Under the pieces are notes generated by a model that saw only the letters and a list, made by a program, of their open reading frames with translations, ran no database searches and had not been told where the DNA came from. Positions 8,862 through 27,951 of a stretch of DNA of 64,000 bases are shown piece after piece. The translations under genes were made by a program, and so were the position numbers. The DNA is from Clostridiales bacterium (GTDB taxonomy: Bacteria > Bacillota > Clostridia > Christensenellales > Borkfalkiaceae): NCBI GenBank assembly GCA_015069295.1, contig SVIW01000006.1, positions 1-64,000 on the forward strand, in the 5' to 3' direction. Position 1 is the stretch's first letter. Each line of letters opens with the position of its first letter.

Positions 8862-8892
8862 AAAGTTATCCCCTTTTTCTTTTTACGCACCT

Positions 8893-8946: not shown

Positions 8947-8958
8947 AAATCTACGCAA

Positions 8959-8983: not shown

Positions 8984-8993
8984 TGTTTTTCGC

Positions 8994-10664: not shown

Positions 10665-10690
10665 AAAGTTATCCCCTTTTTTACCAATTC

Positions 10691-10718
10691 ACTATATAAT
10701 TAACGCCCTCAATCTCAA
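10691..10718 (-). promoter_or_regulatory. Promoter of lipoprotein gene 2
   Basis: Minus-strand TTGAGA (10713-10718), a 16-base spacer and TATAGT (10691-10696). The 27-base element seen before genes 1 and 3 is absent here. Confidence 0.45.
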
Positions 10719-10720
10719 CG

Positions 10721-10750
10721 AAAAGCGGACGGAAATTCCGTTCGCTTTTT
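10721..10750 (-). terminator. Terminator of lipoprotein gene 3
   Basis: A stem built from AGCGAACGGAAT and ATTCCGTCCGCT-type arms, followed by TTTTCG on the minus strand. It is a close copy of the terminators at 8959 and 12548. Confidence 0.65.
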
Positions 10751-10757
10751 TCGCTGC

Positions 10758-12440
10758 TTAATAATCCCAAGCCTTCAAGCCCGAATTGTCGATTGCATTC
10801 GTATCGTGAAGTTTCTTAAATTCTGCGCGGAAGTTTTCAACGAAGTCTACCGCTACGACGTAGCTGTACGAGAACGCAACGTATTCTTTCATCTTTACCA
10901 CAATGGTAGGCGCGGTGTAGGACGTGTTACCCGTATAGCAGCTCGTATACACAGAGGTAGGCGCGGGCTTGTTGTACAAGAACTTGTTCGCGTCCCCCAT
11001 CGGCGCTTTATGCGCGTTGGCATTGTTGTTGTAAACGATACTTCTCGTAGCGTTGCTTCTGCCCGAAACGTAAGTGCTTGCGCCGGGGATATAGATACCT
11101 ACGCCGAAGTTTTGCCCCTCGTTGACCCAAGCAAACCAATCTTCGGGATGGGTCTTACTGCGATGGCTTAATTCCGGTTTCGTCCAAGCGCCCAAATCCG
11201 CCCTTTCCACGTAATTGATATCCGTCAAATCCCAAGCGTTATTGCCTTCATAGCAAACGTATTTGTTCAAAGGATGGGAAATGTAGGTTGCGGGGATTTC
11301 CAAACCGCATTCGGGAACTTTATCCATATCGGTAAAGCCGTTCCAATCGATAAAACGGTTGGTAACGTACAGCTTGTTGTCCTTAATCGTGTACCAGTTT
11401 TCGATATACGACTTGGTCGTTCTGCCGTTCTTTACCTGTTCGTGCAGTTCGCCGTACGTAGGGTCGTTTTTAAATCTTTCCCAAGCATAGCCGTTGCCCC
11501 AGTCCATTGCGCGAACCTTAATATAAATTTGGTTGCTGGTTACCTGATAGTCGATAATCTGCGATACGTTACAAACTTCGTCGCCGCCCTGTACGGGGTT
11601 GTACGGCCAATAGAAGCCCTCGCTCGTTTCCGTAAAGCACCACATTCTTTGATAGCCGTTTGCGCCCGTCGCTTCCTCTCTCGTACCGCCGACGTTTGCG
11701 TAATAACTTTGCTGGATTTCGCGCCCAGCGTCGTAGATATTGATGAGGTTGACCGAATCGGACAAAAATTCTTTACAGTTCGGATCCGACGGGTCAATCC
11801 CCAAGCCTATCGAAACGTTGTTGTTCGCGTCGATATATTCGGAAACTTTCAAGCCTTGATAGTTCGTACGTTCAAGATAGGAAAGCGTACCGCCCATCGC
11901 AAGGTCGGCACCCACCTTCAAATCCCCTTCTTGGATATATACCTCTTTTTCAAACTCGGGCACGTCGCGGTCTGCCACCGAGAAATCCCCAAGCTTTACC
12001 GTCGCCGTTTCGTTGTCTACGTTCTTCAACGTAACCGAAAGCATTTTCTTATCGAACAAGCCCACGCCGTTTGCGCGATAGCTGTCCAAGAACTGCTTAA
12101 ATTCAATTTGTTGATTCGAAGGCTCGATATAGAAATTTTCCTCGACGATTTTCGTCGGGTCGCTTACGTCGCAATATTCGAACGTACCGTACAGATTGTT
12201 AGTCGAATTCATCAACAAGCGAACGTAGTTTTTGCCCGTAATATCCTCGTTAACCGCAATTTTCTTTTCCTCGTTCGGATTTAAAGTAAAGGTTTCCGTG
12301 GACGAATATACGCTGGTATACGCAAGCCCGCCTTTAGAGGGCGTGGACGAAGACTGTTCTTCCTCGCCGCAAGCCGAAAGCCCCAGCATACTAAGCGCGG
12401 AGATGCCTGCCAAAATCAAACTGCACAACTTTTTCTTCAT
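10758..12440 (-). CDS. Tandem lipoprotein family member 3 (unknown function)
   Basis: A 560-residue member of the same lipoprotein family: signal peptide, lipobox LSAC, then an acidic/serine linker (EEEQSSSTPSKGG) and the two-part beta-rich body. DAGREIQQSYY, FYWPYNPVQGGDEVCN and NGRTTKSYIENWY are all retained. Compared with members 1 and 2 it has an inserted loop (GNGYAWERFKNDPTYGEL region). It has the best promoter of the array, so it may be the most highly expressed copy. Function unknown; an outer-surface glycan-binding role near the importer is inference from context. Confidence 0.8.
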   Translation of the reverse strand: MKKKLCSLILAGISALSMLGLSACGEEEQSSSTPSKGGLAYTSVYSSTETFTLNPNEEKKIAVNEDITGKNYVRLLMNSTNNLYGTFEYCDVSDPTKIVEENFYIEPSNQQIEFKQFLDSYRANGVGLFDKKMLSVTLKNVDNETATVKLGDFSVADRDVPEFEKEVYIQEGDLKVGADLAMGGTLSYLERTNYQGLKVSEYIDANNNVSIGLGIDPSDPNCKEFLSDSVNLINIYDAGREIQQSYYANVGGTREEATGANGYQRMWCFTETSEGFYWPYNPVQGGDEVCNVSQIIDYQVTSNQIYIKVRAMDWGNGYAWERFKNDPTYGELHEQVKNGRTTKSYIENWYTIKDNKLYVTNRFIDWNGFTDMDKVPECGLEIPATYISHPLNKYVCYEGNNAWDLTDINYVERADLGAWTKPELSHRSKTHPEDWFAWVNEGQNFGVGIYIPGASTYVSGRSNATRSIVYNNNANAHKAPMGDANKFLYNKPAPTSVYTSCYTGNTSYTAPTIVVKMKEYVAFSYSYVVAVDFVENFRAEFKKLHDTNAIDNSGLKAWDY

Positions 12441-12471
12441 AAAGTTACCCCTTTTTTTATATTACAAATTT

Positions 12472-12537
12472 ATTATAGCATAAAAAGACACGCTCGTCAA
12501 TAGGCAATAACTGTTAAAAATAACGAAAGTTTTGTCA
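12472..12537 (-). promoter_or_regulatory. Promoter and upstream motif of lipoprotein gene 3
   Basis: Minus-strand TTGACG (12495-12500), a 17-base spacer and a perfect TATAAT (12472-12477). Ten bases further upstream, 12511-12537 carries the 27-base element shared with gene 1 (25 of 27 identical). Confidence 0.7.
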
Positions 12538-12547
12538 TTTTTCACGC

Positions 12548-12578
12548 AAAAACGGACGGAAAAGCTTCCGTCCGTTTG
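12548..12578 (-). terminator. Terminator of lipoprotein gene 4 and the cluster 1 operon
   Basis: A stem AAACGGACGGAA with TTCCGTCCGTTT, followed by TTGCG on the minus strand. It separates the operon ending in lipoprotein 4 from the single-gene units of lipoproteins 3 to 1. Confidence 0.75.
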
Positions 12579-12587
12579 TTTTTTTGC

Positions 12588-14246
12588 TTAATAATCCCAA
12601 GCTTTTAAGCCCGAATTGTCTACGCCGTTAACGTCTTTAATCTTTTTGAAGTCCTTACGTATCGTGTCCAAGTAATCGACCGCCACGACGTACGTATACG
12701 AAAGAGGCACGTATTCTTTCATCTTCACGCATACGACGGGCGCGGTATAGTCGGTATTCCCTACGTAACAACTCGTCCACTGCGAGGTAGGCGCTTTCTT
12801 ATTGAAAAGGTATTTGTTCGCCATCTTGCTTTCGAACGCCGAGCGGTTGTTTTGCATCGTCAAAATCGATTCCACGTCGTTTCTACCCGAAACGTAAGGA
12901 CCTGCCCCAGGGATATAAACGCCTACGCCAAAGTCGTTGTCGTTGACCCAAGCAAACCAATCTTCAGGGTGATAATTGTTGACGTACGCAGTCTTTGCCC
13001 ATTCGTCCAATTTACCCTGCCTATCGTACGTTTTGTCCTTTAAGTTCCAAGCGTCGTTGCCCGTATAGCAAACGTAGTTGCGGAACGGATGCACGACGTA
13101 CGCCGCGGGAATTTCCAAATTGTGCGCCTCGATATCGTCCATATCGGTAAAGCCATTCCAGTCGATAAAGCGGTTTTCGACGTACAGCATACCGTCCTTA
13201 ATCGTATACCAGTTCTCAATATACGATTTAGTCGTTCTACCGTTCTTTACCTCTTCGTATTGCGGATTATTCTCATCCCAAGCCAAACCGTTACCCCAGT
13301 CCATTGCACGAACTTTAACGTAAATCAGGTTATCCTTCACTTCGTAATCGATAATCTGGGACACGTTACAAACCTCGTCGCCGCCCTGCACGGGGTTATA
13401 CGGCCAATAATGTCCGCCGTCGCCCGCCGTATAAGACCACATTCTTTGATAACCGTTTGCGCCCGTCGCCTCTTGCTCCGTACCGCCGACCGCCGCGTAA
13501 TAGCTTTGCTGGAATTCACGCCCTGCGTCGCAGATATTGATAAGGTTTACGGAGGAGGAAAGGAAGGTAGCACATTCGTCGCTATCCTCGTTAATACCGA
13601 CGTCAATGGAAATATTGTTGTCGTAATCGATATACTCGGAAACGACCTCGCCTTCCCAGCTCGTTCTTTCCAAATAGGAGAGCGTTCCGCCCATCGCAAG
13701 GTCGGCGCCCACTTTCAATTCGCCTTTTTGGATATACACTTCTTTTTCAAACGAAGGAACGTCGCGGTTTGCCACCGAGAAATCCCCCAGCTTTACCGTT
13801 GCTTCTTCGTTGTCCAAATTCTTCAACGTTATCGAAAGCATTTTCTTATCGAACAAGCCTACGCCGTTATCGCGATAGCTGTCCAAGAATTGTTTAAATT
13901 CGATTTGTTGATTCGACGGCTCGATGAAAAATTCTTCTTTAACCACTTGCGTAGGATTTTCAACGTTGCAATATTCGAACGCCCCCAAAAGATTTGCGGA
14001 CGAGTTTAAAAGCAAGCGCACGTAGTTTTTACCCGTAATATCGTCGTTGAAGGAAAATTTCTTTTCCTCGTTTGCCTTTAAGGTAAAGGTTTCCGTCGAA
14101 GTATACAGACTTTCGAACGTATATTTTTCCGTTACTGGGTTGTTGTTAGACGAACTGCTTTCTTCCGACGAGTCGCCGCAGGCAGCCATTTGGAAAACGC
14201 TAAAAACGGATAATCCCGCCAACAATACACTAAGTTTTTTTCTCAT
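12588..14246 (-). CDS. Tandem lipoprotein family member 4 (unknown function)
   Basis: A 552-residue, most divergent member of the family. The lipobox is MAAC (Cys23), followed by a serine-rich linker and a YTFESLYTSTETF start of the first module. The core motifs are present with changes: DAGREFQQSYY instead of EIQQ, and HYWPYNPVQGGDEVCN. It starts 23 bases after the Gfo/Idh stop and has no promoter of its own, so it is the last gene of the transporter operon. This is probably the founding copy, from which genes 3, 2 and 1 arose by duplication downstream. It could be an accessory binding protein or an unrecognised carbohydrate-active enzyme. Confidence 0.8.
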   Translation of the reverse strand: MRKKLSVLLAGLSVFSVFQMAACGDSSEESSSSNNNPVTEKYTFESLYTSTETFTLKANEEKKFSFNDDITGKNYVRLLLNSSANLLGAFEYCNVENPTQVVKEEFFIEPSNQQIEFKQFLDSYRDNGVGLFDKKMLSITLKNLDNEEATVKLGDFSVANRDVPSFEKEVYIQKGELKVGADLAMGGTLSYLERTSWEGEVVSEYIDYDNNISIDVGINEDSDECATFLSSSVNLINICDAGREFQQSYYAAVGGTEQEATGANGYQRMWSYTAGDGGHYWPYNPVQGGDEVCNVSQIIDYEVKDNLIYVKVRAMDWGNGLAWDENNPQYEEVKNGRTTKSYIENWYTIKDGMLYVENRFIDWNGFTDMDDIEAHNLEIPAAYVVHPFRNYVCYTGNDAWNLKDKTYDRQGKLDEWAKTAYVNNYHPEDWFAWVNDNDFGVGVYIPGAGPYVSGRNDVESILTMQNNRSAFESKMANKYLFNKKAPTSQWTSCYVGNTDYTAPVVCVKMKEYVPLSYTYVVAVDYLDTIRKDFKKIKDVNGVDNSGLKAWDY

Positions 14247-14269: not shown

Positions 14270-15559
14270 TTATTCAAATTCCGCGAGGGCAACCAAACGG
14301 TTTTCCTTTCTCGCCTTTTCCGCCGCAAACACGCAAAGATGCCCGTTGACGGAATCGTTAATCGAGGTAATGGAAATCGAGCTCTTATCCCCGTTGAGAT
14401 ACGCGCACAAATCGTGCATAATCGCAAAGTCGCCGCCGCTGTGCCCGCCGAATTTCGCGTTGTTGACAACCTCTTTGGACACGTCTACAACTTCGCTGCT
14501 GCCGTTAAACTGATCCGTCGTATACGTGCGGTAAACGAATTTGTCTTCGGAAATTTTCCCTTCGATTTCCCCTTGCGTACCTACGATATGGATATACCGT
14601 TCGGGCGCAACCGTTCCCCCGACGAGAGTAAACGAACAACACGACCCGTCTTTAAACGAAACGATAACGTTTTGTCTGTCCACAAGATCGCCGCCCGCGA
14701 TATACGCGCAACGCCCGTAATTGTCGCGGCGCAAGAACTCTTCCTTTTCCTCTTGCGTAATTTCGTCCAGAGGTTTGTTTAATTTATCCCATACGAGGAA
14801 GGGCATTACGCCAAAGTGTAAATATTGGCGTTTCGCCGAATACACGCAAGTATCCACGTGCGGGCATTGATAGCAAAATTCCGTCGCGTCCTTGGGCATT
14901 TTGGGCTTGATAAAATGCGAACGGCTGCCCATACTCGCCAATTTTTCAGGCACGGTCGAATTGTTCAACCAGCACATAACGTCCATATCGTGGCAGCATT
15001 TTGCAAGCAAGAAACCCGAACCGCAAGCCGCCTCGCTATTCCACTTCCCTCTGTCGAACGCCGCCAAAAAATGGGGAGTACAAACGTGTTCGTTCATTTC
15101 CATCGTCATAATATCGCCAAGCTTGCCTTCGTTGATGTACTTTTTAATCGTACGATAAAAAGGCGTATAGCGAAGCACGTGTCCGACGAATACGTTACAG
15201 CCCATTTCCTTTGCCTTGTCGCGGATTGCCAACAACTCTTTTTCGTTGGGAACGATGGGCTTTTCCATCAACATATCGTAGCCCGCGCTTAAAATTTTCA
15301 TCGCCGTTTCATAGTGCAACGCGTCCATCGTCGCGTTGATAACGAAATCGCACTCTATTTTCTTGCTAAGGAAATCGTCAAGATTGAAAAACAGCATCTC
15401 GTCCTGAATGCCGTATCTTGCTTTTGCCTCACTGTGCTTAAACGGGTTGGGATCCACGATCCCGATCACTTCCAACTGCTCGGGGCAATCGAGCGAATAG
15501 TCCGCATACACCTGTCCTCTATTGCCGTATCCTACGACAACCGTCTTTAACTTTTTCAT
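14270..15559 (-). CDS. Gfo/Idh/MocA-family NAD(P)-dependent oxidoreductase
   Basis: A predicted sugar or inositol dehydrogenase, or 3-keto-sugar-forming enzyme, in the cytoplasm; 429 residues. The Rossmann motif VVVGYGNRG lies at residues 7-15. The catalytic EKP motif is intact (E99-K100-P101), and CHDMDVM carries the usual histidine/aspartate pair. A CxxCxxxxxC motif (C229, C232, C238; CYQCPHVDTC) belongs to a known subgroup and may bind a metal. It is closely similar along its whole length to the C-terminal two thirds of the AraC fusion encoded at 18200-20311. It is followed at 23 bases by lipoprotein 4. The substrate is unknown. Confidence 0.88.
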   Translation of the reverse strand: MKKLKTVVVGYGNRGQVYADYSLDCPEQLEVIGIVDPNPFKHSEAKARYGIQDEMLFFNLDDFLSKKIECDFVINATMDALHYETAMKILSAGYDMLMEKPIVPNEKELLAIRDKAKEMGCNVFVGHVLRYTPFYRTIKKYINEGKLGDIMTMEMNEHVCTPHFLAAFDRGKWNSEAACGSGFLLAKCCHDMDVMCWLNNSTVPEKLASMGSRSHFIKPKMPKDATEFCYQCPHVDTCVYSAKRQYLHFGVMPFLVWDKLNKPLDEITQEEKEEFLRRDNYGRCAYIAGGDLVDRQNVIVSFKDGSCCSFTLVGGTVAPERYIHIVGTQGEIEGKISEDKFVYRTYTTDQFNGSSEVVDVSKEVVNNAKFGGHSGGDFAIMHDLCAYLNGDKSSISITSINDSVNGHLCVFAAEKARKENRLVALAEFE

Positions 15560-15639: not shown

Positions 15640-18180
15640 TTATTTTACAACGATTGCACGCACGTAAATATCGTTCGTGGAACCTTGAATACCATTAAAT
15701 TTCACACACGAAATATAATCGTAGGCATAATCCGAAAGATCGATTTCGAGTACCGCCCATTCTCCTTCCGTCATGTTTACTTTAATTTCAATCCATACGT
15801 CCTTATTGGCACCGTAATTGATTGATTCCTCCGCACTTTGCGCACCGTACGTAGAAATAACCGCCGTTGCGCAAGAGGTTCTGTTTTGGTAAACGATATA
15901 CAGTTTGCCACCGTCTACAACCTCGAGATTCTTCAAGTTGTTATCCGCCAAATAGAACATTTGATTTTTCGTCGAGGTATTTAATTGCATCGCAGACAAA
16001 CTTTCAAGATAGCTGCCGCTTACCCAACCGTCTACCGCAAAATAGCTTTCCGCGACCTCTTTATTAGACAAATCAACGCCGTTGCCGTTCAAGCCGTGGA
16101 AGGCAATCGAGTGCAGATACACCGTACCCGTACCAACGAAGTAAATCTTAACCCCCGTCAAGTTAGTGAGCTGCGTAGGAAGTTTCACCTCTACGGGCGC
16201 AGGGTTTTCCTTGGAAAGCGCAAACACGTGTTCCGTTGCGACGCCGTTACAATCCAGCACGAGCTTAATTTGTTCTACCGACGAATCTTCGGGCAACGTA
16301 TAGCGCAACGTCATCGTATCGTAAGCGTGCAAAGCAAAATTGTTAAAAGCCTTTTCCACAAAAGCGTTGCTTGTTTCCACCACCGCTTTCGCCGCGTACG
16401 CTTCAGAGGTAAAGCTTACCCCCGAGCTTGCAATATAACTTTCCACCTCGCCTTCGGTCAAGAAGTTAAGACCCGTTACGGGGCGGACGAGATCCGCGTC
16501 AAATTTACAGAATTCGAACGATTTCAAAAGATATGCGTTATCCACGCCGTTGCTGTTCGCCGCGATACGCAAAGTCTTTAACGTTCCCGTAATCCCGTAT
16601 CTGTCCAACGGAATCGTGATGGTTTCCGCCGCCTTCATCGTTGCGGGCAATTGAGCCTGCAACATGTACTCGCCCCCGTCTTCCGTCATCAAAATAAATT
16701 CGAGATACGGGATCCAACCGTAGTTTTGCACGGTCAACTTAATACTGCTGTATTCTTCCAATACGATCGTCTGGTCGATCGGTTTTAAATCGACTTGGTT
16801 ATATTGCGCTCTAAACGGCATATACACAAGCAAACCTTCCGTCTTGTTGTATACGTCAACGTATTGTTCTAATCCAGTATGGTCGCACATAAGCCCCGAT
16901 TTATACGACGACTTATCCGCAGGGAAATCAAAGCCCGTAATATTCGAGCGGGTAACCCCGTCCAAGTCTTCCTGCGAATCGGACTGCAAGAAATCTTCCG
17001 CAAACGAATCTTTCGCCTGCTTCGCTTCTCTATCCGCAAGGTCGGTTACGCCCTTGATTTCTTTGATGTGCAAATGGTACGCTTCGCTTTGATCCGCCGA
17101 AGTTCTGTCGTACTGATATTGCAAACGGAGCAACCCAAGTTTCGCGCTGTTTGCCCATACGTAAGTACCGTTATATATTTTCGAGCTCAAATCGAAGGTC
17201 GCCGTAATCCAATCCCCCTCCGCAGAATATTCGAGAGGGCTCATCGTATGGGCAACTTCCATACCGCTAAACGCACCTTGGCTGAACGCGTACGTATCGT
17301 CCTCGTACATACTCGACCAATACAAAACGAGATGCGCGCCGCGGTTCTCCCCGATTACGTAGTCGTAGGGGTTCTTAAAGGTAACCTGTATCTTTTGCGT
17401 ACGGGTAATATCTACGTGCAGATTTTCCAGCATAATATGGGGGTCCATACCCGCAGGCGAATACCCAAAATCTACGTCTACGTATCCGCCGTCGCCGTCG
17501 TCCACGTAGTTGATACCGCCAAAGTACCCGCCCTGTTCGCCTGCGCCGCCTGCAACGCCGTAGAAGCGGCTTGCAATCGTTGCTGCGTCAAAATAGATAT
17601 ATTCGCTGCGTTTTAAATAGATTTCCGTATCGGAAGTAATCGGCTGCGTGAAATCAAATTCCGTTTCGCAAGCCTCGTCTGCGTAATACCCAAGCAATTC
17701 GTAGCCGTCGGCAATTTTGTCTGCTCGTTCGGCATAGCCGCCCTCGGCAACGCTATTTTCCCGTTTCAAAACCGCTTCGCTACCGTCGGTAAGATAGTAT
17801 TTTACGTCGTACCCAATCACCCAACGCGCATACAGCGTCATACTTTTACTGACCGTATCCGTGTTAAAATCCCATTTTTGGGTATACGCCTTGGAAGTAT
17901 ACCAACCCTCCAACTGGTAGTTGTTAGGATTCTTTTTCGCACGGATAGAGGGTTCTTTTACCAAGTCCCCGACTTCTAAATCTTTTTGTTGCAAGGGATT
18001 CGTAGTTTCCAATTCGTCATAATCGCCCGCACAAGGGTCGAAGGATACCGTAATCGACGTTTCTTCAACGATAGACGAACCGTCGCTATTCGTGTTTTCC
18101 GCCTCACCGCAAGCGGCAAAACAGCAAAGCCCAAAAGTCAAAGCGCAAATGGCTATCAAGCCTTTTTTCAGTCCTTTCAT
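15640..18180 (-). CDS. Large lipoprotein with InlB/FFD-type repeats
   Basis: An 846-residue surface lipoprotein starting MKGLKKG. This ATG has AAGGAG ahead of it and a proper signal peptide; the frame opens earlier, but inside the neighbouring gene. The lipobox FAAC gives Cys24. Residues about 35-185 hold two Listeria-Bacteroides (FFD) repeats, recognised by YQLEGWYTS...LYARWV and YELLGYYAD. The remainder looks like several beta-sandwich, carbohydrate-binding-type domains, with recurring LTNLTGVKIYFVG-like strands. It lies between the regulator fusion and the Gfo/Idh gene of the transporter operon. A glycan-binding role at the cell surface is inference; no catalytic motif is seen. Confidence 0.78.
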   Translation of the reverse strand: MKGLKKGLIAICALTFGLCCFAACGEAENTNSDGSSIVEETSITVSFDPCAGDYDELETTNPLQQKDLEVGDLVKEPSIRAKKNPNNYQLEGWYTSKAYTQKWDFNTDTVSKSMTLYARWVIGYDVKYYLTDGSEAVLKRENSVAEGGYAERADKIADGYELLGYYADEACETEFDFTQPITSDTEIYLKRSEYIYFDAATIASRFYGVAGGAGEQGGYFGGINYVDDGDGGYVDVDFGYSPAGMDPHIMLENLHVDITRTQKIQVTFKNPYDYVIGENRGAHLVLYWSSMYEDDTYAFSQGAFSGMEVAHTMSPLEYSAEGDWITATFDLSSKIYNGTYVWANSAKLGLLRLQYQYDRTSADQSEAYHLHIKEIKGVTDLADREAKQAKDSFAEDFLQSDSQEDLDGVTRSNITGFDFPADKSSYKSGLMCDHTGLEQYVDVYNKTEGLLVYMPFRAQYNQVDLKPIDQTIVLEEYSSIKLTVQNYGWIPYLEFILMTEDGGEYMLQAQLPATMKAAETITIPLDRYGITGTLKTLRIAANSNGVDNAYLLKSFEFCKFDADLVRPVTGLNFLTEGEVESYIASSGVSFTSEAYAAKAVVETSNAFVEKAFNNFALHAYDTMTLRYTLPEDSSVEQIKLVLDCNGVATEHVFALSKENPAPVEVKLPTQLTNLTGVKIYFVGTGTVYLHSIAFHGLNGNGVDLSNKEVAESYFAVDGWVSGSYLESLSAMQLNTSTKNQMFYLADNNLKNLEVVDGGKLYIVYQNRTSCATAVISTYGAQSAEESINYGANKDVWIEIKVNMTEGEWAVLEIDLSDYAYDYISCVKFNGIQGSTNDIYVRAIVVK

Positions 18181-18199: not shown

Positions 18200-20311
18200 T
18201 TATTGTAAAACGGGAAGAGAAACAACGAGGCTTTCCTTTCTCGCTTTCTCCGCCGCAAACACACATAAGTGTCCGTAAATCGAGTCGGACAACGCCGTAA
18301 TTGACGCCGAATCCTCCACGCCGTTTAAATAGACGATAAGATCGTGCATAATCGCAAAGTCGCCGCCGCTATGCCCGTCCCGTTTTGCCCGCAAGGGTAT
18401 ATCCTCTTTTAAATCGATGGTCTTTACAATCCCGTCGAAGGCGTCTTTCGAATATTTCCGAAGCGTAAACTTATCCTCGGAAAATTTCCCCTCGATTTCG
18501 CCGTCCGTACCGATAATGCGAATACCGCGCTCCGCTTTGGTCGCACCGCCCACGAGCATAAACGTCCCGCACGAGCCGTTTTCGAAGGTTACAATAACCC
18601 CCTGTCTGTCCACAAGGTCCCCACCTGCGATATAGGCGCAACGTCCGTAGTTATCCTTGCGCAAAAATTCAATTTTTTCCTCTTCCGTAATCTCCTCGAG
18701 GGGTTTATCCAATTTGTCCCACACAAGGAAGGGCATAACCCTACGGTCGAGATACTGACGGATTGCCGAGTATTGACAGGTGCGTTCGTATTTACAATCG
18801 TAGCAAAACTCCGACGCGCCCTCCGGCATATTTTCCTTGATGAACTGTGCTCTACTTCCCAGCGACGCAACCTTGATAGGGACGGTAACGTTGTTCAACC
18901 AACACATCAAATCCATATCGTGACAGCTCTTGGCGAGCAACAAACCCAAACCGCACGCTTCCTCGCTGTTCCATTTCCCTCTGTCAAAGGAAGTAACGTA
19001 GTGGGAAGCACAGACGTTTTCGTTCATTTCTACCGTCATAATTCTGCCGATTTCCCCATCGTTGATCAGCTTTTTAATCGCTTTATAATAAGGCGTGTAC
19101 CGAAGCACGTGGCAAACGAAGACCTTACAGCCTTTTTCTTCCGCCTTATTGCGAATGGAGAAAAGCTCTTCCGCCGTCGGCACAATCGGCTCTTCGATCA
19201 GCATATTGTAACCCGCTTCTAAAAGCTGCATTGCCGTTTCGTAATGCTTTTGGTCCATCGTTGCGTTGATGGCGATATCGCACTGTATTTTCGCCTGCAA
19301 AAAGCTTTCCATATCCGCAAACAGCCTATCGTCCGTAAGCGAATAGCGGGCTTTTGCCCGATTGCGCTTGTATTCGTTGGGTTCTACAACCGCCGCGATT
19401 GCAAGCTCGTCAGGGCGTTCGAGCGAATAGTCCGCATACACCTGTCCGCGGTTGCCGTAGCCTACGATGACCGCCGTGCATTTTCTGAAATTCCACTGCC
19501 CGTTACCTTCCAATATCGCCGTAATTTTATCCGCTTCTTTTTTGTATTTCCGCAAAGCACGGTAATAGGTTTCGCGACTGGTAAAGCCAGAGGTGAAAAT
19601 AATTTCGCTGATGGTGTGCGAGCCGCGCAACCGTTTCTCAATCTCTATCGATTTTTTTACCCGCACGTAATTGAGATAAGAATTTAAATTTACCCCGAAA
19701 TACTTGTTAAACGCCGAAGAAAAATATTTGGAGCTATACCCGAATTTCTTTGATAAAAAGGATAAATTCAATTCCTCGTTAAAATGCTCGTCAATATACT
19801 GGCGCACCCGATCGAACAAATCGTCCGCGCGCTTTTTGCCCGTATCTGCGAACAACGCGCCCGCGTCGAACGCACCGATGAAATAATTGACAAACCCGCG
19901 CTTTTCGTAGGTATTGTTGTGAGCCAACTCGTCCGCCGCGCGATTAAGCATCGACAAGATTTTTTTCATCGTTCCCGAAGGAAGCCGCAGCTTGTTGTTA
20001 AAATGTTTTTCCCCGCTCGTTATCCCTAAAAGATAATCCTGTTCGATAACGACGGAAAAACCGCTGACGGGCGAAAGGATTTGCACGGCGTACGATTCGA
20101 AAAGGTTGGACACGAACACGTCGCCCCCTTTACAATCGTACTCCGCCTTGTGAATCGTGCATTTTATCGTCCCGCTTTTTATCAACAAAAAATGCACGGT
20201 ATTATAATAGCTTTTAGTCAAAAAATCCCGTTCGGTGGTTTCGCGGAATTCGGAAATACGAACTCCGTCTAAAAAACCCGACATTTTTTGACGGTTTTGT
20301 ACGCCGTCCAT
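18200..20311 (-). CDS. AraC-type regulator fused to a Gfo/Idh oxidoreductase domain
   Basis: A single 703-residue open frame with two normally separate proteins. Residues 1-160 form an AraC cupin-like sensor. Residues about 165-260 are the two helix-turn-helix units of AraC (LSFLSKKFGYSSKYFSS and ISEIIFTSGFTSRETYYRA). From 276 a full Gfo/Idh domain follows: GYGNRG at 284-289, CHDMDLM, and the CxxCxxxxxC cluster (C503, C506, C512). The catalytic EKP is EEP: Glu374, codon GAG at 19190-19192, replaces the lysine. The start codon overlaps the permease stop by one base (TAATG), so translation is coupled. It may be a transcription factor that senses a sugar or NAD(P)H through a dead enzyme; residual activity is the alternative. 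Confidence 0.88.
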   Translation of the reverse strand: MDGVQNRQKMSGFLDGVRISEFRETTERDFLTKSYYNTVHFLLIKSGTIKCTIHKAEYDCKGGDVFVSNLFESYAVQILSPVSGFSVVIEQDYLLGITSGEKHFNNKLRLPSGTMKKILSMLNRAADELAHNNTYEKRGFVNYFIGAFDAGALFADTGKKRADDLFDRVRQYIDEHFNEELNLSFLSKKFGYSSKYFSSAFNKYFGVNLNSYLNYVRVKKSIEIEKRLRGSHTISEIIFTSGFTSRETYYRALRKYKKEADKITAILEGNGQWNFRKCTAVIVGYGNRGQVYADYSLERPDELAIAAVVEPNEYKRNRAKARYSLTDDRLFADMESFLQAKIQCDIAINATMDQKHYETAMQLLEAGYNMLIEEPIVPTAEELFSIRNKAEEKGCKVFVCHVLRYTPYYKAIKKLINDGEIGRIMTVEMNENVCASHYVTSFDRGKWNSEEACGLGLLLAKSCHDMDLMCWLNNVTVPIKVASLGSRAQFIKENMPEGASEFCYDCKYERTCQYSAIRQYLDRRVMPFLVWDKLDKPLEEITEEEKIEFLRKDNYGRCAYIAGGDLVDRQGVIVTFENGSCGTFMLVGGATKAERGIRIIGTDGEIEGKFSEDKFTLRKYSKDAFDGIVKTIDLKEDIPLRAKRDGHSGGDFAIMHDLIVYLNGVEDSASITALSDSIYGHLCVFAAEKARKESLVVSLPVLQ

Positions 20312-21186
20312 TACAGCTTTAACCCTGCGGCAAAATCGCCGCTACCGAAGAATTTCATACTGATAATCGAAGTAATGATAAGCGGGATACTCGACAAAAT
20401 ATACATCGCGTAAATCGCGCCTTTATCGTTGACGAAATTCGTTTCCAAATTCTTCATCGCGGGCATCAACGTTAAATTGTCTCGGAGGATTAGAATCGGC
20501 CACAAATAGTCGTTATACACAGAGGAAACGCTGCCAACGAAGCAATACAAAATAATCGGCAAAGCAAGGGGTACGGTAAAGGTCAGATACAGCTGCATAT
20601 CGTTCGCCCCTTCTATCCTCGCGCTTTCGTAAATGGCTTTGGGCTGCTGCGAGAAGAAGGTTCTAAACAAGAACAGCGAAGTAACTTGCCCACCCGAAAG
20701 AATGGGCAATAAATACCCCACGTACGAGTCTTTCAAGCCCAGCGTATTGGAAACGAAAGGCACGAGCACGGGCATACCCATAATCGAGGGCAGCATCATA
20801 ACCGCCAAGAAGAAGATGAAAATTCCTTCTTTAAAATAGAACGTCTTATAGGTGAACAAATACCCTAAAATTGTACCGATAACACAGGTCAAAAAGGCGG
20901 AAGCAAACGCCAATAAAACGCTGCGCCAAAAATATACGTTCATACCGTCGATAAGACCAGGCCCCGACCACGCCAGCGAAAAGTTTTTGCCGATCGTAGA
21001 AAAGAACCCTTTCTTCCAAAAGGACGGGAATCCGAAAATATTCCCCGACACCGCCGCATTGTCCTTTAACGAATTCATAATCGTCAAATACAAAGGAATC
21101 AGGGTAAATACCGTGAAGACGGTGATATAGATTACAATAAAAATCTGCCAGCTTTTTTTATCTTGGCTTCTTAAACTCTTGCCCAT
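20311..21186 (-). CDS. Carbohydrate ABC transporter permease (MalG type)
   Basis: A 291-residue inner-membrane subunit of a sugar importer. It has six predicted membrane segments (first at about 17-38) and the EAA loop that contacts the ATPase, seen as ESARIEGANDMQLYLTFTVPLALP. It begins one base after the partner permease stop, and its own stop overlaps the fusion regulator start. The C-terminus ends in the short FGSGDFAAGLKL typical of this family. No ATPase gene is in the window; a shared MsiK-type ATPase is presumably encoded elsewhere. Confidence 0.92.
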   Translation of the reverse strand: MGKSLRSQDKKSWQIFIVIYITVFTVFTLIPLYLTIMNSLKDNAAVSGNIFGFPSFWKKGFFSTIGKNFSLAWSGPGLIDGMNVYFWRSVLLAFASAFLTCVIGTILGYLFTYKTFYFKEGIFIFFLAVMMLPSIMGMPVLVPFVSNTLGLKDSYVGYLLPILSGGQVTSLFLFRTFFSQQPKAIYESARIEGANDMQLYLTFTVPLALPIILYCFVGSVSSVYNDYLWPILILRDNLTLMPAMKNLETNFVNDKGAIYAMYILSSIPLIITSIISMKFFGSGDFAAGLKL

Positions 21187-21187: not shown

Positions 21188-23578
21188 TCACACCTCCTTA
21201 TCCTTCGTTTGCATACGCAAATTCAGTACCGTGGCGACGAACAGGAACAAGAATAGTACCGTGGCGTACGCAGCAGCTTGCCCCCACGCGCCTTGGTTCA
21301 TCTTGGTATACATTTGGAAAATAACCGTCTTGTCGCCGTTTTGACCGCCCGTAACCAGTTCCGTTCTGCCAAAGTTTTGCACCGAACCGATAAAGGTAAG
21401 GATAAACACGTATTTAATCTGCGAGAAAATGAGCGGAATATCAATGAAAATAAACCGTTTCATAACGGTAATACCGTCTAGCTCCGCCGCCTCGTAATAG
21501 CTGTCGGGCACGTTCATCATCGCGCCGTAGAAAATAAGATACGACCCGACGTACGGGAAGCCCATAAAAATTAGCGAAGGCATCGGATATCGGCTAAAGA
21601 AGGAAATCTTTTCGCCGCCGCAAAGCTGTACGAGGGCGCTGAGCACGCCGTCGCCGCCCAAAATACCGTTTTTCCAAAGCAAGGTCGAAGCTATACCCGG
21701 GATAATGCCGGGGATAAACAGCAACGTACGCGTCAACGCCGAGTACCCACGGCTGCGCATAATCGTAAGGAAGAACGCAAACACAAGGGGCGGAATCAAC
21801 GCAAACACGAGGTCGAAGAATAAGAAAATGAACATATTCTTAAAGGACTCGCCCGCGTATTCGTTGGTAAATACTTCGACGTAGTTTTGGAAGTTATTCC
21901 AAATCAGAGTAGGTCTTTCCCGCGTATAATCGAAGAAAGAATTGGAAATGGACGCCACGGCGGGATAGTAACAGAACATAATAAGGAATACGCTGGATAC
22001 TACCAACATCGTGTACACAATCCATTGCTTTTTAAAATCTTTCAGCATTCTGAAAAACGCCTTGTCAAAGCCTTTCTTTTTCCAGAAAAGGAAGGAAATC
22101 AGGGTTTCTATTGCCGAAATTACGGAAAGGATAATAAAGACGATAAAAAGCGGGCGCAAGGTTTCCGCACGCAAAATCTTGTCTACGTTCCAACCCTTCA
22201 AATAGCGTACGCCCGATTCGCCGTTTACCTTATCCTCGTACAGATAGTACGCATAATCCCCTTCCGTGTTATGTATAATTGCGGAAATATCATAATCGAG
22301 ATTGCCCGTGAAAATTTCTTTTTCCGTTCTAAAATCGATAAAGGTTACCGTCTGCAAATCTTGATAGGTCGTATACCCTTTCCCCGTCGTCGAATCAAAG
22401 AAGACGTTGGTCGGCAGGGCAACCAATTCGATATCCAAACGGACGAGGTCGTCCTCTTCAAAATATTCGTTCTCAATCTCCGCAAGATCGTCGAAAGAAT
22501 ATTTAAAAATACCGGCTTTTGCGAAGGTATACACGTTGCCTTGTTCCTTATCGACGGCAACGCTCTCCGAGTTGATAACGTTGATGTTGTATACGCGGTA
22601 ACGATCCGCAAGGAATGCGGACAATTCGACTTCTACCACGCCCTCATCCCAATTATAGTTTTCAAGGGCAGGGTACACAGTTTGCACGTTTTCAAACGCC
22701 GAGTTTTCTATGCGCCGCTTTGCGCGCAGCGCCACCATATCCTCGTCTACGTATTCGATTTCGCCGTTTTCCACTCTCAATTCTTCTTCCGCATAAATTT
22801 CCGCGTAGAACGTTTGATAGTTTTTCTCGTATTCCGCCTGGTATTCCTTCATCAAAACGCCTTCGTAGTCGTTCCCTTTAAAATCGGTAGACATACGATA
22901 AAATCCGCCCTTGAAAAAGAGATACAATAACCCGTCGTATACCTCAAAGCCTTGCACCTGCAAGCCTCTTACCAGCTCTAAAACGCAAGGATTGGCACGG
23001 GTAACGTTGTAAAGATACCCCGTATCTGGCGATGCACAAATATCCTCCACGTCGTATTTGGAAACCACGATATAAGGAATACTCGTAACAACGTAGACGT
23101 GGCTTTCGTCTTCCGTCAAGCCCTTGAAATCCCCGTTAATTAACGCGTAATCATCGCAAAGTTGCAATCCGTCTTTCGTGTTTTCCAGCTTGAAAAGATA
23201 ATGTACGTTGGTATAAATCCAAACGTAACCCGATTCTTTCCCAACCATAAACGATTGAATATTACCCACGTCGAAATCTTTCCCAAAACGAGCTTTCGCC
23301 TCGTCTTTTAACGAGAAAGGCTCGCCAATGGGATTCCCCTCCTTGTCCATGTGGTACACGGAGGAGTTGGACGTTGCGTAATACCAATCGTTATCTATCC
23401 CTGCGGCAATCGAGGTAACGTTCGACCCGTCTGCAGCCGCAATCCGTTCCCCCGAAGGCATTAAAATACCCAAGACGACGGTCGCCGCTATCAACAACGC
23501 CAACAAAACCGCCGAAATAATCGCCGCGAGTTTACTCTTATTTTTCTTTTTGCAAAAATCTTTTTTTGCTTCTGCCAT
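21188..23578 (-). CDS. ABC sugar permease (MalF type) with a giant extracytoplasmic domain
   Basis: A 796-residue protein, more than twice the usual ~300. The start MAEAKKD has GGGGATGG upstream; an in-frame ATG seven codons earlier lacks a ribosome site. One membrane segment (about 16-40) leads into roughly 430 residues predicted outside the membrane. These show repeated short strands with aromatic ends (NDWYYATSNSSVYHMDKEG, GLLYLFFKGGFYRMS, GNVYTFAKAGIFKYS), like a beta-propeller. A further membrane segment near 475 and the standard permease core follow, with the EAA loop as EAAELDGITVMKRF. The outer domain may dock or replace part of a binding protein, or sense ligand. Confidence 0.85.
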   Translation of the reverse strand: MAEAKKDFCKKKNKSKLAAIISAVLLALLIAATVVLGILMPSGERIAAADGSNVTSIAAGIDNDWYYATSNSSVYHMDKEGNPIGEPFSLKDEAKARFGKDFDVGNIQSFMVGKESGYVWIYTNVHYLFKLENTKDGLQLCDDYALINGDFKGLTEDESHVYVVTSIPYIVVSKYDVEDICASPDTGYLYNVTRANPCVLELVRGLQVQGFEVYDGLLYLFFKGGFYRMSTDFKGNDYEGVLMKEYQAEYEKNYQTFYAEIYAEEELRVENGEIEYVDEDMVALRAKRRIENSAFENVQTVYPALENYNWDEGVVEVELSAFLADRYRVYNINVINSESVAVDKEQGNVYTFAKAGIFKYSFDDLAEIENEYFEEDDLVRLDIELVALPTNVFFDSTTGKGYTTYQDLQTVTFIDFRTEKEIFTGNLDYDISAIIHNTEGDYAYYLYEDKVNGESGVRYLKGWNVDKILRAETLRPLFIVFIILSVISAIETLISFLFWKKKGFDKAFFRMLKDFKKQWIVYTMLVVSSVFLIMFCYYPAVASISNSFFDYTRERPTLIWNNFQNYVEVFTNEYAGESFKNMFIFLFFDLVFALIPPLVFAFFLTIMRSRGYSALTRTLLFIPGIIPGIASTLLWKNGILGGDGVLSALVQLCGGEKISFFSRYPMPSLIFMGFPYVGSYLIFYGAMMNVPDSYYEAAELDGITVMKRFIFIDIPLIFSQIKYVFILTFIGSVQNFGRTELVTGGQNGDKTVIFQMYTKMNQGAWGQAAAYATVLFLFLFVATVLNLRMQTKDKEV

Positions 23579-23614
23579 CTCGTTCCATCCCCTTTTCATA
23601 AGGTTTGGACGGGT

Positions 23615-25366
23615 TTACGATTTCGCTATCCCATCGTCCAAATCCAAGTTTTCAGGCTTCCAACAATTTACGCTCCAGTTTCTCAAATTCTTCGCCTCAC
23701 GCGGCCAAGCGGAAAGCAAAGTCGAATGCCAATTCGTTGCAAACTGCGTTGCCGTCATCGCCAAATCACCCTCGCCCATCATAAAGCGTTTCCAATAGGT
23801 CTGGTTTTGCTGCATTGCCGTCGCGTCTGCGCAAAGTCCGCAAATCAACCATTCGATATATTCGTTGTTGTCGGACAAGCCGCTGAATTGTACTTTTTCA
23901 CTGCTGAAGAACGCCTTCCATTTTTCAGGCACAGCCACCAAATCGTTATTGACCGTCGTCAAGCCCTGCGGCGTTGCGCTCGTTCCTTCCAACGCATTAT
24001 AATAAATCGACTGCCCGTACGGCGACATAAAGAATTTAATAAAGTCAAGGTTTAATCTGTTTTGGCTAGCATCGTGCGAAACAATGGAAAGATAACCGCC
24101 GTTGCCGCCAACGTCACGAACAATCGTGCCTTCCTTGATAAACCCACCCTTACTGTGCATCGTAGGATAGTCAAACAAATCCGCATCTACCTTCGAATCC
24201 GCTCTACCAAAGAGTAAGCCCGAGCCCACGAAATCCAAGAAGATCTGCGGGGAATCGTCGCCTTGCGATTGCTGATAGAATTCGCTACGCATTTCGTCGT
24301 GCGTAACGGTATCCGCCCCGACTGCAAGGTAGGGTTTCAAGGCTTCGAACTGCGACAAGAATTCTTTAAATCTCGCGCTGTTTGCGCCAACGTACGCGCT
24401 TTCCGTCTGCCCCGCGCTCGTCTTAATCGTAAGCGGCGTTTCAGGGTCAAGAATGGTGGACAAGAGCTTGTTGTGGCTCAAGTCGAAATCCTTATGCGCT
24501 TCGGGCGTTTCCGCCGTCAAATCCACCTTATACGTTACGCCGTCGGTTCTCGTCTTTTGTACGTAATCGTACATGTTTCTATAGTAATAGTCCCCGTAAA
24601 TACGAAGCAACCACATAAACTGCGAACCGCCAACCGACGAAGGATGCAAGGAAAGTCCCAAAGGCTCGCTATACCCAGCTTTCTGCATATAATCGCAAAG
24701 ACTGATAAGCTCTGCCCACGTCTCGGGGTTTTTCGCTACGCCACCGTTATAACCTTCCGCCGCCGCTTTTGCGAGGGCTTCCTTGTTGACGAACCAACCC
24801 GTGTTGAGATTAAGGCTGTTCATGATAAATACGTCCGTGTTCATACCCGACGTATCGGTAACGTAAGCGTTCTTCGTCAAAACTTCCGTCCAATACTTGT
24901 TACCCGCATAAGCGTTTAAACCGTATACGCTCGAATACATATTATAGCATTCTGCGGTCAATACCTTGGCAGAGAGCAGATTCCCCTGCACGATATCCCA
25001 TTCGGTTTCGTCGTCCGCTACTTCCGTATCTGCGATTTCTTTATAGCTTGCCGCATTGTATTTCGTATCCAATACGACCCCAACCGCGCCGCCGTGGATC
25101 TTTTCGTATTCGTCCGCAACCGCGCGCCAGCCCGCCTCGGTACCATCGAAAACAATGGCAACGTCAATCGAGCCTTCCATTTGCTTTACCTTGTCCAAAC
25201 GGGGCATATACGCCTGGTCCAGCTCATCGAATTGATAGGAAAGCTTTACCCCGTCTATGGGTTTGTCCGAGGTAGAAGAGCCTCCGGACGGTTCCGAATC
25301 CCCGCAAGCCCCAAACGCAAACGTCGCCGCAAGCGCCAAACACAACGCCGAAATTCTTTTCTTCAT
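23615..25366 (-). CDS. Extracellular solute-binding lipoprotein (sugar importer, cluster 1)
   Basis: A 583-residue substrate-capture component of the importer, anchored by a lipid at the lipobox FGAC (Cys20). The body shows a family 1-type binding-protein pattern: IDVAIVFDGTEAGWRAVADEYEKIHGG near the N-terminus and a long C-terminal lobe with FIKFFMSPYGQSIYYNALEG. It is longer than the usual 420-460 residues. It is the first gene of the cluster 1 operon, 36 bases before the large permease. AAGGAGG precedes the ATG. The substrate is not recognisable; context suggests an oligosaccharide. Confidence 0.9.
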   Translation of the reverse strand: MKKRISALCLALAATFAFGACGDSEPSGGSSTSDKPIDGVKLSYQFDELDQAYMPRLDKVKQMEGSIDVAIVFDGTEAGWRAVADEYEKIHGGAVGVVLDTKYNAASYKEIADTEVADDETEWDIVQGNLLSAKVLTAECYNMYSSVYGLNAYAGNKYWTEVLTKNAYVTDTSGMNTDVFIMNSLNLNTGWFVNKEALAKAAAEGYNGGVAKNPETWAELISLCDYMQKAGYSEPLGLSLHPSSVGGSQFMWLLRIYGDYYYRNMYDYVQKTRTDGVTYKVDLTAETPEAHKDFDLSHNKLLSTILDPETPLTIKTSAGQTESAYVGANSARFKEFLSQFEALKPYLAVGADTVTHDEMRSEFYQQSQGDDSPQIFLDFVGSGLLFGRADSKVDADLFDYPTMHSKGGFIKEGTIVRDVGGNGGYLSIVSHDASQNRLNLDFIKFFMSPYGQSIYYNALEGTSATPQGLTTVNNDLVAVPEKWKAFFSSEKVQFSGLSDNNEYIEWLICGLCADATAMQQNQTYWKRFMMGEGDLAMTATQFATNWHSTLLSAWPREAKNLRNWSVNCWKPENLDLDDGIAKS

Positions 25367-25668: not shown

Positions 25669-27714
25669 TTAGAGTTTTTCCACAACCGCATACGCCGTCG
25701 TTTCGGGAGCGAGCGTCAGCTCGTTACCCTGCCACTTGCCTGCGCCGCCAACCTTGACAATCTTTTCTTTCAAGCAAATCGTCTTGGTTTCCTTCGAGGC
25801 GTTAAAGAGGAAGACGATTTGTTCGTTTTCCTTTTCCAAACGCTTTTCGTACAAAGAATTTTTCACGTCCGCGTAAGAATATTTGGAAACGCCGACCTCA
25901 TCCACGATATCCGCAATAGTCCGATGCCAAATTTCGCCGCCGTCGTGATAATAAGCATACCCTACCGAGAACCCAAACAGATACACCGCGCCTTTTCCGT
26001 ACGCAAATTTTTGCAAAGCAGGTTTTCCGTCGTCAAACCGCGCCAAGACTTCCGCGCCTTGCGCTTCGTATACCGTTTTATACGGACGGATTTCCCCCGT
26101 AAGCCCGTTATACGCCACTTTATTCCCGTTCGAAACGAGCCGAGTACGCATACGCGCCGTCAACAAGGGTTTCACGTCGAGGTCGTACGGCTGCATCCAA
26201 GTATTCGTTTGACGGAGTCCAAAGCCCTCGTCCGCGATAACGACGCCGCCGTTTTTCACGTACGATTCCAACGCCTCGCGCAGCTCGTTCGTAATCATTT
26301 GATGATACGGGAAATACAAAACCTTATATTCCGCAAATTTATCCAAATCGCGTACGCCGAGATAGTCGACCTTGTAATTATTATCGCGAAGAAGTCGATA
26401 CATACCTGCGTGCGTGTTACGGTATTGGAATTTAGGGTTGCCGAAGTCAAACGAATAATCCGCCCCGCAGCTATCCTCAATGACAGAAACCAACAGATTG
26501 TCAAAATCGAACACGATGGCAACGTCCGCCTTTTCCGCCTCGCAGCCCGAAAAATGCGCTTTATCCTCTTTCAGCGCGCCGCCGATTTCTTGCACCTCGT
26601 AAGCGACCTCGCGCGGCGTGCCGTCCATATACATAATCCCCGAACAATCGCTTTCCATACCGACCCGTTCGGCGCGGTATTGCCAATAGACGAGCCCCTT
26701 CGCCCCTGAGGAAATCGCGCTATACAATTTGAAATTCATATCGAAACGAGTATCGTAAACGTAAAATCTGCCCATTCCGGGATAGATTTCGTGCAGGAAA
26801 TAATTTTTATCTACGCAGCGCAGGAAATCCCCCAGCATTTGGAAATCCATTCGCTTCGCGTGGGTGTCCATCGTCGTATCGCAAGGAATGGACGTCCCCC
26901 AAAAATCGACGGCTTTTTTTGCCGTAAAATCGTCGCAAAGGTCGGAAAGCGCCAACTGGAACCCGCAGGTAAAGCCCACGTGCGACATAATCGGACGCAC
27001 TTTGTCGTATTCTCTAATTTTGTCGTACACGAAGCGCAAATCCTCGTAAATACAATATCCCGCTTTGAATTTCTTAAACTCGAAAATATCCCAATATCCG
27101 TGCGGCATTGCGGGAAGATTGACCGTTTCAAAGCTTTCTTCCGTCGCGCCGTAACGGGCGTTAAGCGCCTCGATAGTATGATATTTTTCCTTTAAATACT
27201 TGCCAAACCCCGCGCGGCAATGAGGACAAAAACATTCCTCTACGGGACGGTTACGCGGCTCGTTCCAAACGTTCCAAAGAATAATGGAGTCGCGCCCGTG
27301 GTATCTCTCCACGACCTTGCCAACGAATTTTTCCGCCGCCGTCTTGACGTAGGGATTGGTAAAGCAGGGTTTCCAGCCGCCGTAAAACGCGCCGTGATAA
27401 CCACCGCGGAACACCTCGCCTTTTGGACCGATTCTCGCCCCGCCGTATTTATCGAAAACGTATTGCGGCGCACATTCCAACAAGAATTTTATAATAACCT
27501 TACGATTGTATTTTTCCGCCAGTTCCATCAAGCGGTCTACGTCGGAAAAATCGTATTCTCCCTCCACCCGTTCGTTTTGCCTCCAGTTAATGCGGATTTG
27601 CAAGGCGTCAAGATTAAACTTTTCCAAATTGGAAATATCCTCCTCCCATTCTTCGGGAAGCGGCGTGGGGGAACGATAATACTGCGTACCGTGGATAATT
27701 TCATCAAAAAACAT
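25669..27714 (-). CDS. Beta-galactosidase, glycoside hydrolase family 42
   Basis: A cytoplasmic 681-residue enzyme predicted to release galactose, or a related sugar, from imported oligosaccharides. It has a TIM barrel with the acid/base in WNVWNEPRNRP (Glu152) and the likely nucleophile Glu309 in FLHEIYPGMGRF. A zinc site of the GH42 type is visible as C117 plus CFCPHC (C161, C163, C166). The trimer-forming middle domain and a short C-terminal beta domain follow. No signal peptide. It has its own strong promoter, a ~95-base leader and a terminator, so it is transcribed apart from the importer operon. The linkage specificity is unknown; arabinosidase-like GH42 members exist. Confidence 0.9.
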   Translation of the reverse strand: MFFDEIIHGTQYYRSPTPLPEEWEEDISNLEKFNLDALQIRINWRQNERVEGEYDFSDVDRLMELAEKYNRKVIIKFLLECAPQYVFDKYGGARIGPKGEVFRGGYHGAFYGGWKPCFTNPYVKTAAEKFVGKVVERYHGRDSIILWNVWNEPRNRPVEECFCPHCRAGFGKYLKEKYHTIEALNARYGATEESFETVNLPAMPHGYWDIFEFKKFKAGYCIYEDLRFVYDKIREYDKVRPIMSHVGFTCGFQLALSDLCDDFTAKKAVDFWGTSIPCDTTMDTHAKRMDFQMLGDFLRCVDKNYFLHEIYPGMGRFYVYDTRFDMNFKLYSAISSGAKGLVYWQYRAERVGMESDCSGIMYMDGTPREVAYEVQEIGGALKEDKAHFSGCEAEKADVAIVFDFDNLLVSVIEDSCGADYSFDFGNPKFQYRNTHAGMYRLLRDNNYKVDYLGVRDLDKFAEYKVLYFPYHQMITNELREALESYVKNGGVVIADEGFGLRQTNTWMQPYDLDVKPLLTARMRTRLVSNGNKVAYNGLTGEIRPYKTVYEAQGAEVLARFDDGKPALQKFAYGKGAVYLFGFSVGYAYYHDGGEIWHRTIADIVDEVGVSKYSYADVKNSLYEKRLEKENEQIVFLFNASKETKTICLKEKIVKVGGAGKWQGNELTLAPETTAYAVVEKL

Positions 27715-27847
27715 AGAACTCTCTCCTTATACAATGTCTTTCGTGGTATACGCGCTCGTGGCGCGTACCGTAAAGCGTGAGTCGGTCTTGAAAAATTCTT
27801 TCAATACCCGTTTGGCTTATTATACCGCAGAAAAAACACAAAGTCAA
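27715..27847 (-). promoter_or_regulatory. Promoter and leader of the GH42 gene
   Basis: Minus-strand TTGACT (27842-27847), a 17-base spacer and TATAAT (27819-27824), then a leader of about 95 bases. The leader carries a GC-rich hairpin (27745-27769, GGTACGCGC with GCGCGTATACC) before the AAGGAGAG ribosome site. No known riboswitch is recognised. Confidence 0.75.
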
Positions 27848-27951
27848 GTTCCATTTTTCCCGTTTTTGTGTCAATTTTTAAGCTGTTTTTCGGAAAGCAG
27901 TAAATTTCCTCAATCCCTTTTCAATCGCTTTCCTTTTTTTTGTTTTTGTGC

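Follow-up and report, generated by a model that had tools for sequence, protein, structure and literature searches.

The 64,000-nucleotide stretch of Clostridiales DNA analysed here (the window) contains a gene in which an AraC-type regulator and a Gfo/Idh/MocA domain share one reading frame, and in which the lysine of the EKP motif is replaced by glutamate. This raises the question of whether the two halves truly form one protein and, if so, whether the Gfo/Idh half serves as an enzyme or as a sensor. The first-pass annotation, made from the sequence alone, described a full AraC protein joined to a full but dead dehydrogenase, and proposed that the latter reads sugar or NAD(P)H and controls DNA binding. 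The gene and its parts are as follows.

18200..20311 (-), AraC-Gfo/Idh fusion gene, 703 aa, with an ATG start and one uninterrupted frame without internal stop
19832..20311 (-), diverged AraC cupin (ligand/dimer) region, aa 1-160, from the alignment with seven fusions
19538..19816 (-), AraC double helix-turn-helix (HTH) DNA-binding domain, aa 166-258 (Pfam HTH_18/HTH_AraC, 173-258)
18212..19480 (-), Gfo/Idh/MocA domain, aa 278-700 (Pfam PF01408, PF02894 and PF22725, all above cutoffs)
19190..19192 (-), codon 374, GAG (Glu) replacing the EKP lysine (EEP), known from one metagenome-assembled genome (MAG)

Both Pfam models recognise the HTH (HTH_18 at 37.3 bits with a cutoff of 33.6, HTH_AraC at 29.9 bits with a cutoff of 26.6). 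In the Gfo/Idh half, GFO_IDH_MocA extends over residues 280-400 and the C-terminal Gfo/Idh domains over residues 409-693; this half retains the glycine motif GYGNRG and is 63% identical to the stand-alone Gfo/Idh protein encoded at 14270-15559. The first 160 residues gave no Pfam cupin match and could be aligned to the sister fusions over 160 residues at 30% identity or less (30% to the fusion of genome G354 and 16-30% to the remaining ones). Among three sister fusions scanned, the Pfam cupin match was present in two (G016 and G000:C1) and absent from G354. The description of two full proteins in one 703-residue frame therefore holds for the intact frame, the HTH and the complete Gfo/Idh domain, while the cupin escapes Pfam. 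A separate feature of the Gfo/Idh half is a group of four cysteines (Cys503, Cys506, Cys512 and Cys558) kept in 54 of 54 aligned Gfo domains, the spacing of which might be compatible with a putative metal or iron-sulphur site.

That a frameshift or mis-assembly had joined two genes is ruled out by seven further fusions in seven genomes, the window's own among them. A profile was run against 398 genomes of the window's bacterial family, with the best two candidates per genome scored, and a scan of named genomes was added; together these gave eight distinct AraC-Gfo fusions in seven genomes: two in the window's own genome, G000 (the window fusion and one on contig C1, 50% identical to it), and one each in G016, G020, G026, G332, G006 and G354. 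Named records with the same fusion proteins are Clostridia MAGs, five of them from sheep colon or roe deer gut, plus SIG410. Since the same architecture recurs at seven other places, the fusion is not an assembly join, and the gene reported in the first-pass annotation is genuine. Six of the seven other fusions also share the operon context as far as it is assembled, with permeases before and a large secreted protein after, and a solute-binding protein lies further upstream wherever the contig extends that far; the short permease of the G000:C1 operon is 57% identical over 301 residues. The G006 fusion lacks its 5' end, as the contig begins inside it, and is followed by unrelated genes. In the window, the start of the fusion gene overlaps the stop of the preceding permease gene (TAATG), and all seven junctions read, counting that of the window, show such an overlap; for three of them a TTG start was assumed.

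Two further candidates were rejected: a 686-codon frame, L189, which is a high-GC open frame, and a 726-codon frame, C11 of G000 (L056:8382-10559), in which a stop codon separates adjacent AraC and EKP Gfo/Idh genes that share a reading frame. No further fusion was present among the matches of 396 order-level genomes (some of them of the window's bacterial family) and 398 phylum-level genomes, in a weak search that scored the best two to three candidates per genome under strict cut-offs. The phylum-level part gave 20 rows, of which three loci were read and the others judged by matched range alone.

The codon at position 374 can be read directly: the fusion has EEP, and the two other Gfo/Idh proteins of the window (14270-15559 and 48583-49860) have EKP, as had been noted at the outset. 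The proposal that a single base change separates the two forms is likewise borne out by the G354 fusion, the codon of which is AAG, one transition from GAG. After removal of near-duplicates and of Gfo/Idh matches that fell short of E 1e-80 against the window domain, 54 domains could be aligned, and lysine occupies position 374 in 53 of these, comprising 46 of 46 stand-alone domains and seven of the eight fusions. Lysine loss is thus not typical of the fusion, since seven of eight retain it, and the idea that it is a feature of the AraC-Gfo architecture did not survive the fusion search and tabulation. In leave-one-out comparisons over the 54 domains, the window protein departs at only one of 65 columns conserved at 96% or more, namely K374, whereas the G354 fusion departs at six of 68 near-invariant columns and keeps Lys374. 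In columns conserved at 80-96%, the window protein departs at nine of 68, including D310E, H432N and S455L, within a range of 1 to 32 over the 54 domains. In relative-rate tests against stand-alone copies, the window Gfo domain showed the faster rate in nine of 20 cases at p < 0.05 (p 0.001 to 0.76).

The consequence of this replacement can be gauged from characterized members of the family. In scyllo-inositol dehydrogenase, the EKP lysine, an aspartate and a histidine are reported to be the catalytic set, and alanine mutants of the three to be inactive, with data not shown there (PMC5969746). Among PDB entries, 8qc2 matches the Gfo family profile best; it is mentioned in the paper on SqgA, a GH188 NAD-dependent sulfoquinovosidase, according to which Lys107 and His193 of SqgA contact the C3-OH and Glu189 contacts the C4-OH (PMC10755693). 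Counting residue spacing in the 8qc2 alignment equates the Lys107, His193 and Glu189 named there with the positions of the EKP lysine, His464 and Ala460. Because the equivalent lysine is described as catalytic in scyllo-inositol dehydrogenase and as touching the C3-OH in SqgA, Lys374Glu should impair hydride chemistry. In terms of the GH188 active-site residues, the window fusion has Glu at the lysine position and Ala at the Glu189 position and keeps the histidine, so that the full set is not present.

Lys461, His464 and Asp465 are kept in 54 of 54 Gfo domains. Position 460, which corresponds to the aspartate of the Lys-Asp-His set, is Ala in 49 and Gln in five of the 54. The whole subfamily, EKP members too, is therefore without the catalytic aspartate, and for this reason the cost of K374E and the term 'dead' can only be inferred. 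As a statement of fact, a dead dehydrogenase was not borne out, given that the domain retains its glycine motif, Lys461 and His464 and departs at just one of the 65 near-invariant positions.

The fusion gene lies in a run of genes on the same strand, the other members of which, together with the presumed promoter, are listed below.

14270..15559 (-), stand-alone Gfo/Idh paralogue in the same gene run, 429 aa, EKP, placed in the tree beside the fusions of the window and of G354
15640..18180 (-), secreted protein with Listeria-Bacteroides repeat (Pfam PF09479), directly downstream of the fusion, with syntenic relatives; ATG at 18180, longest open frame beginning at 18264
20311..21186 (-), ABC sugar permease (Pfam BPD_transp_1), syntenic in sister operons
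21188..23599 (-), large ABC permease (BPD_transp_1 at 26.1 bits with a cutoff of 26.4), syntenic
23615..25366 (-), putative solute-binding lipoprotein, named from its position and lipoprotein-like start, with syntenic relatives 43-51% identical
25669..27714 (-), GH42-type beta-galactosidase family protein (Glyco_hydro_42, 5e-39), first gene of the run
27819..27873 (-), putative operator TGACACAAAAACGGGAAAAATGG, then -35 and -10 (TATAAT) boxes, a match to the pattern of motif plus -10 box

A Pfam scan of the putative solute-binding lipoprotein gave no match. A GH42-type relative (69%) is the first gene of the G354 operon, and the presence of this gene suggests beta-galactosides as the sugar of the operon. 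Beyond the run, four related lipoprotein-like genes, each of about 550 aa, follow one another at 7209-14246 (-), and relatives of these occur downstream of several sister fusions; the two of these that were scanned gave no Pfam match. A very large secreted-looking protein of 1894 aa is encoded at 54274-59958 (-), near a second sugar operon.

Upstream of the window, G000:C1 and G016 operons is a shared motif, TGACAmAa...GGkAA, followed by a TATAAT -10 box 48-49 bp after the motif start. The pattern has two matches in the G000 genome, both before fusion operons, with none for the backward control; since the three sites matched (window, G000:C1 and G016) are those from which the pattern had been built, only the absence of other G000 sites and the G354 site, which was noticed by eye and then measured, are independent of its derivation. 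In G016 the pattern occurs once, at the fusion operon, versus one backward-control match. A scan of ten genomes gave a match in one; the ten include six with fusions, of which four (G020, G026, G332 and G006) are without an assembled promoter. The G354 operon has TGACACA 48 bp before TAGAAT and lacks the GGkAA half, an arrangement matched in 0.0006 of shuffled trials. Overall, the motif lies 48-49 bp before a -10 box in all four fusion operons with an assembled promoter, preceding the solute-binding gene in C1 and G016 and the GH42-type gene in the window and G354. No match to the operator pattern lies in the 305-bp gap that precedes the window's solute-binding gene. The location of the motif fits a predicted AraC-type activator site next to the -35 box.

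The history of the fusion differs between its two halves. Among 47 AraC sequences, the AraC halves of all eight fusions cluster in a single clade (SH-aLRT 99), and a single AraC-Gfo fusion event is therefore the simplest explanation. In the tree of Gfo/Idh domains, the fusions of the window and of G354 pair as sisters (99) on rather long branches and fall in a set of six (95) with four stand-alone genes, 14270-15559 included, while the remaining six fusions make up a separate clade (99). From its place in this tree, which is a quick one with SH-aLRT support alone, the stand-alone gene 14270-15559 is tentatively best read as derived from a duplicated fusion by loss of the AraC half. The proteins of the window and G354 share 30% identity in the cupin region, 63% in the HTH and 66% in the Gfo domain, and dN is 0.70, 0.27 and 0.25, respectively, with dS saturated. 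The His-x-His of the cupin is gone in these two proteins and present in the five other fusions in which that stretch is assembled. Divergence of the cupin and loss of its His-x-His fit a transfer of sensing to the Gfo/Idh half.

Two of the 398 genomes of the family carry a fusion of the opposite order, the relevant loci being the following.

L066:5458-7038 (G016) and L054:1483-3063 (G020), reverse-order fusion, 527 aa, EQP, with Gfo/Idh first and AraC HTH last
48583-51724 (-) of the window, adjacent alpha-L-fucosidase-type gene, separate AraC gene and EKP Gfo/Idh gene, the place that holds the reverse fusion in G016 and G020

On one side of the reverse fusion is a relative of the window's alpha-L-fucosidase-type gene, on the other a stand-alone gene for an EKP Gfo/Idh protein. 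The HTH of the fusion groups with the AraC type found beside the window's other Gfo gene (set of six, 99), and its Gfo/Idh part groups with the type encoded at 48583-49860. It is without a cupin; in effect, the AraC cupin has been replaced by a Gfo/Idh copy. On these sequences, the reverse fusion is independent of the AraC-Gfo fusion, and such fusions arose at least twice.

The subfamily of the reverse fusion comprised 31 domains after matches of 350 bits or less and duplicates were left out. EKP is present in 29 of 29 stand-alone members, 10 of which have an AraC frame nearby on the same strand. Compared with these 29, the reverse fusion departs at nine of 104 conserved positions, including the nucleotide-binding-loop Arg and a GGG stretch; however, the count alone does not mark it out, because the stand-alone gene L168 departs equally often (nine of 108 columns) with EKP intact. 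The G016 and G020 copies differ with a dN/dS of about 0.045 (0.046 for the Gfo part and 0.042 for the HTH), which indicates purifying selection, and a lysine-less Gfo/Idh tied to an AraC HTH is therefore a maintained protein. Two lysine losses, one per tree, both fall on fusion branches, which amount to 8.9% and 6.5% of tree length; the product of these shares, 0.006, is a post hoc figure for two events only, one of them from a single MAG.

A further supposed regularity, that the lysine disappears precisely in those operons that also contain a stand-alone EKP copy, is weakened. The window and both reverse fusions fit it, the next gene in G016 and G020 being EKP (cut by the contig end in G020), and for six EKP fusions no stand-alone copy lies on the part of the contig that was viewed, in some cases a short one. 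However, the G354 fusion, itself EKP, probably has a stand-alone EKP copy in its operon, as contigs L107 and L113 look continuous.

Taken together, we consider it somewhat more probable than not that the window fusion is an operon-specific activator in which the Gfo/Idh half acts as a sugar and cofactor sensor and is catalytically impaired in the window protein. As a one-component activator, the protein would switch on transcription of the sugar-uptake operon to which it belongs; the AraC double HTH would bind just upstream of the -35 region, a placement taken from the shared motif. The C-terminal Gfo/Idh domain would bind the sugar of the pathway, or its oxidised form, together with NAD(H), and signal to the DNA-binding half. 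Lys374Glu would impair turnover and spare binding, with catalysis left to the EKP paralogue at 14270-15559, and the EKP-bearing sister fusions would be able both to sense and to catalyse. Ligand, cofactor, activation and the loss of turnover with binding spared are all inferred from sequence. As for the earlier suggestion of a dehydrogenase domain working as a sensor, it gains credibility from the position in the operon and from the lysine-less reverse fusion under purifying selection; its link to the lysine falls away, because seven of eight fusions, G354 among them, keep the residue, and sensing, if any, does not need its loss.

An alternative is that the protein is a bifunctional trigger enzyme, in which the Gfo/Idh half is still active, either because Glu374, Lys461 and His464 suffice or because the reaction differs, and the cupin remains the sensor; the fusion would then merely couple expression or local regulation of Gfo/Idh to the AraC half. 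The preservation of the other 64 near-invariant positions, the invariance of Lys461, His464, Asp465 and the four cysteines in all 54 domains, the presence of Lys374 in most fusions and the Pfam-recognised cupin of two sister fusions all agree with such an enzyme. We nevertheless regard it as rather unlikely, given the presence of Lys374 in 53 of 54 domains and the contact of the equivalent lysine with the reacting C3-OH described for SqgA. Further, the cupin that would have to do the sensing has diverged more than any other part of the window and G354 proteins and has lost its His-x-His, and the reverse fusion has none.

It is less likely still that Lys374Glu is a neutral or recent loss, tolerated thanks to the duplicate EKP enzyme and of no regulatory meaning. 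The stand-alone paralogue in the same run would permit such a loss, and the rather long Gfo branches of the window and G354, the faster rate of the window domain in nine of 20 tests and the six other near-invariant residues lost by G354 speak in its favour. In a decaying domain, however, changes would be expected at more than one of the 65 constrained positions, and selection has held a lysine-less protein in the reverse fusion. The preservation of the other 64 positions can also be turned to the case for a single-base error of metagenome assembly at codon 374, the true protein being EKP: the codon is known from one MAG and differs from that of G354 by one transition (GAG for AAG). Such an error would have had to strike precisely this codon, and we hold it to be very improbable.

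The preferred reading, that of a regulator with a Gfo/Idh sensor, can be set beside several known systems. The window fusion resembles AraC/XylS one-component regulators in its HTH pair, cupin-like N-terminal region, sugar-transport neighbours and motif near the -35 region. The HTH of AraC regulators is normally the C-terminal end, whereas here an extra Gfo/Idh domain of 425 residues follows it. With the Gfo/Idh/MocA family (8qc2, SqgA), the fusion shares the Rossmann glycine motif and the K-C/S-C-H stretch with the catalytic histidine; unlike SqgA, it has EEP for EKP, Ala at the Glu189 position and a regulator fused on. In yeast, Gal80 is a Gfo/Idh-fold protein that serves regulation rather than catalysis, as a separate eukaryotic protein acting on an activator. 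Gal80 structures (3btu, 3v2u, 3bts, 3e1k and 2nvw) matched the Gfo family profile, and the proposed role of the window fusion is similar in placing this fold in gene regulation, although Gal80 has no HTH of its own. The window fusion did not match the Gal80-specific C-terminal domain PF22685 at E 0.001; the 48583-49860 protein and the G000:C1 fusion matched it weakly, with scores under the cutoff. GbdR and FtrA are AraC regulators with an enzyme-derived domain of the DJ-1/PfpI type, placed N-terminally. They are similar to the window fusion in having such a domain joined to an AraC HTH, but the DJ-1/PfpI fold is unrelated to Gfo/Idh. Among the matches listed in a search of the open-access literature on Gfo with AraC, helix-turn-helix or Gal80, none reports an AraC-Gfo/Idh fusion.

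A broader reading is put forward tentatively, as one that falls somewhat short of probable: one family of gut Clostridia may have twice rebuilt the regulators of its sugar operons around a copy of the operon's own Gfo/Idh protein, in opposite orders, and in both lines the lysine may have been stripped from one such copy and a stand-alone EKP copy kept. This would be a bacterial counterpart of the split between enzyme and enzyme-like sensor in yeast, with the bifunctional stage (EKP) and the sensor-only stage (EEP, EQP) both still to be seen. If so, related genomes would hold a natural series from an enzyme beside a regulator, through a bifunctional fusion, to a catalysis-free sensor, and the step from enzyme to sensor could be tested residue by residue. 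The Gfo/Idh fold would then join the sensor domains of bacterial one-component regulators.
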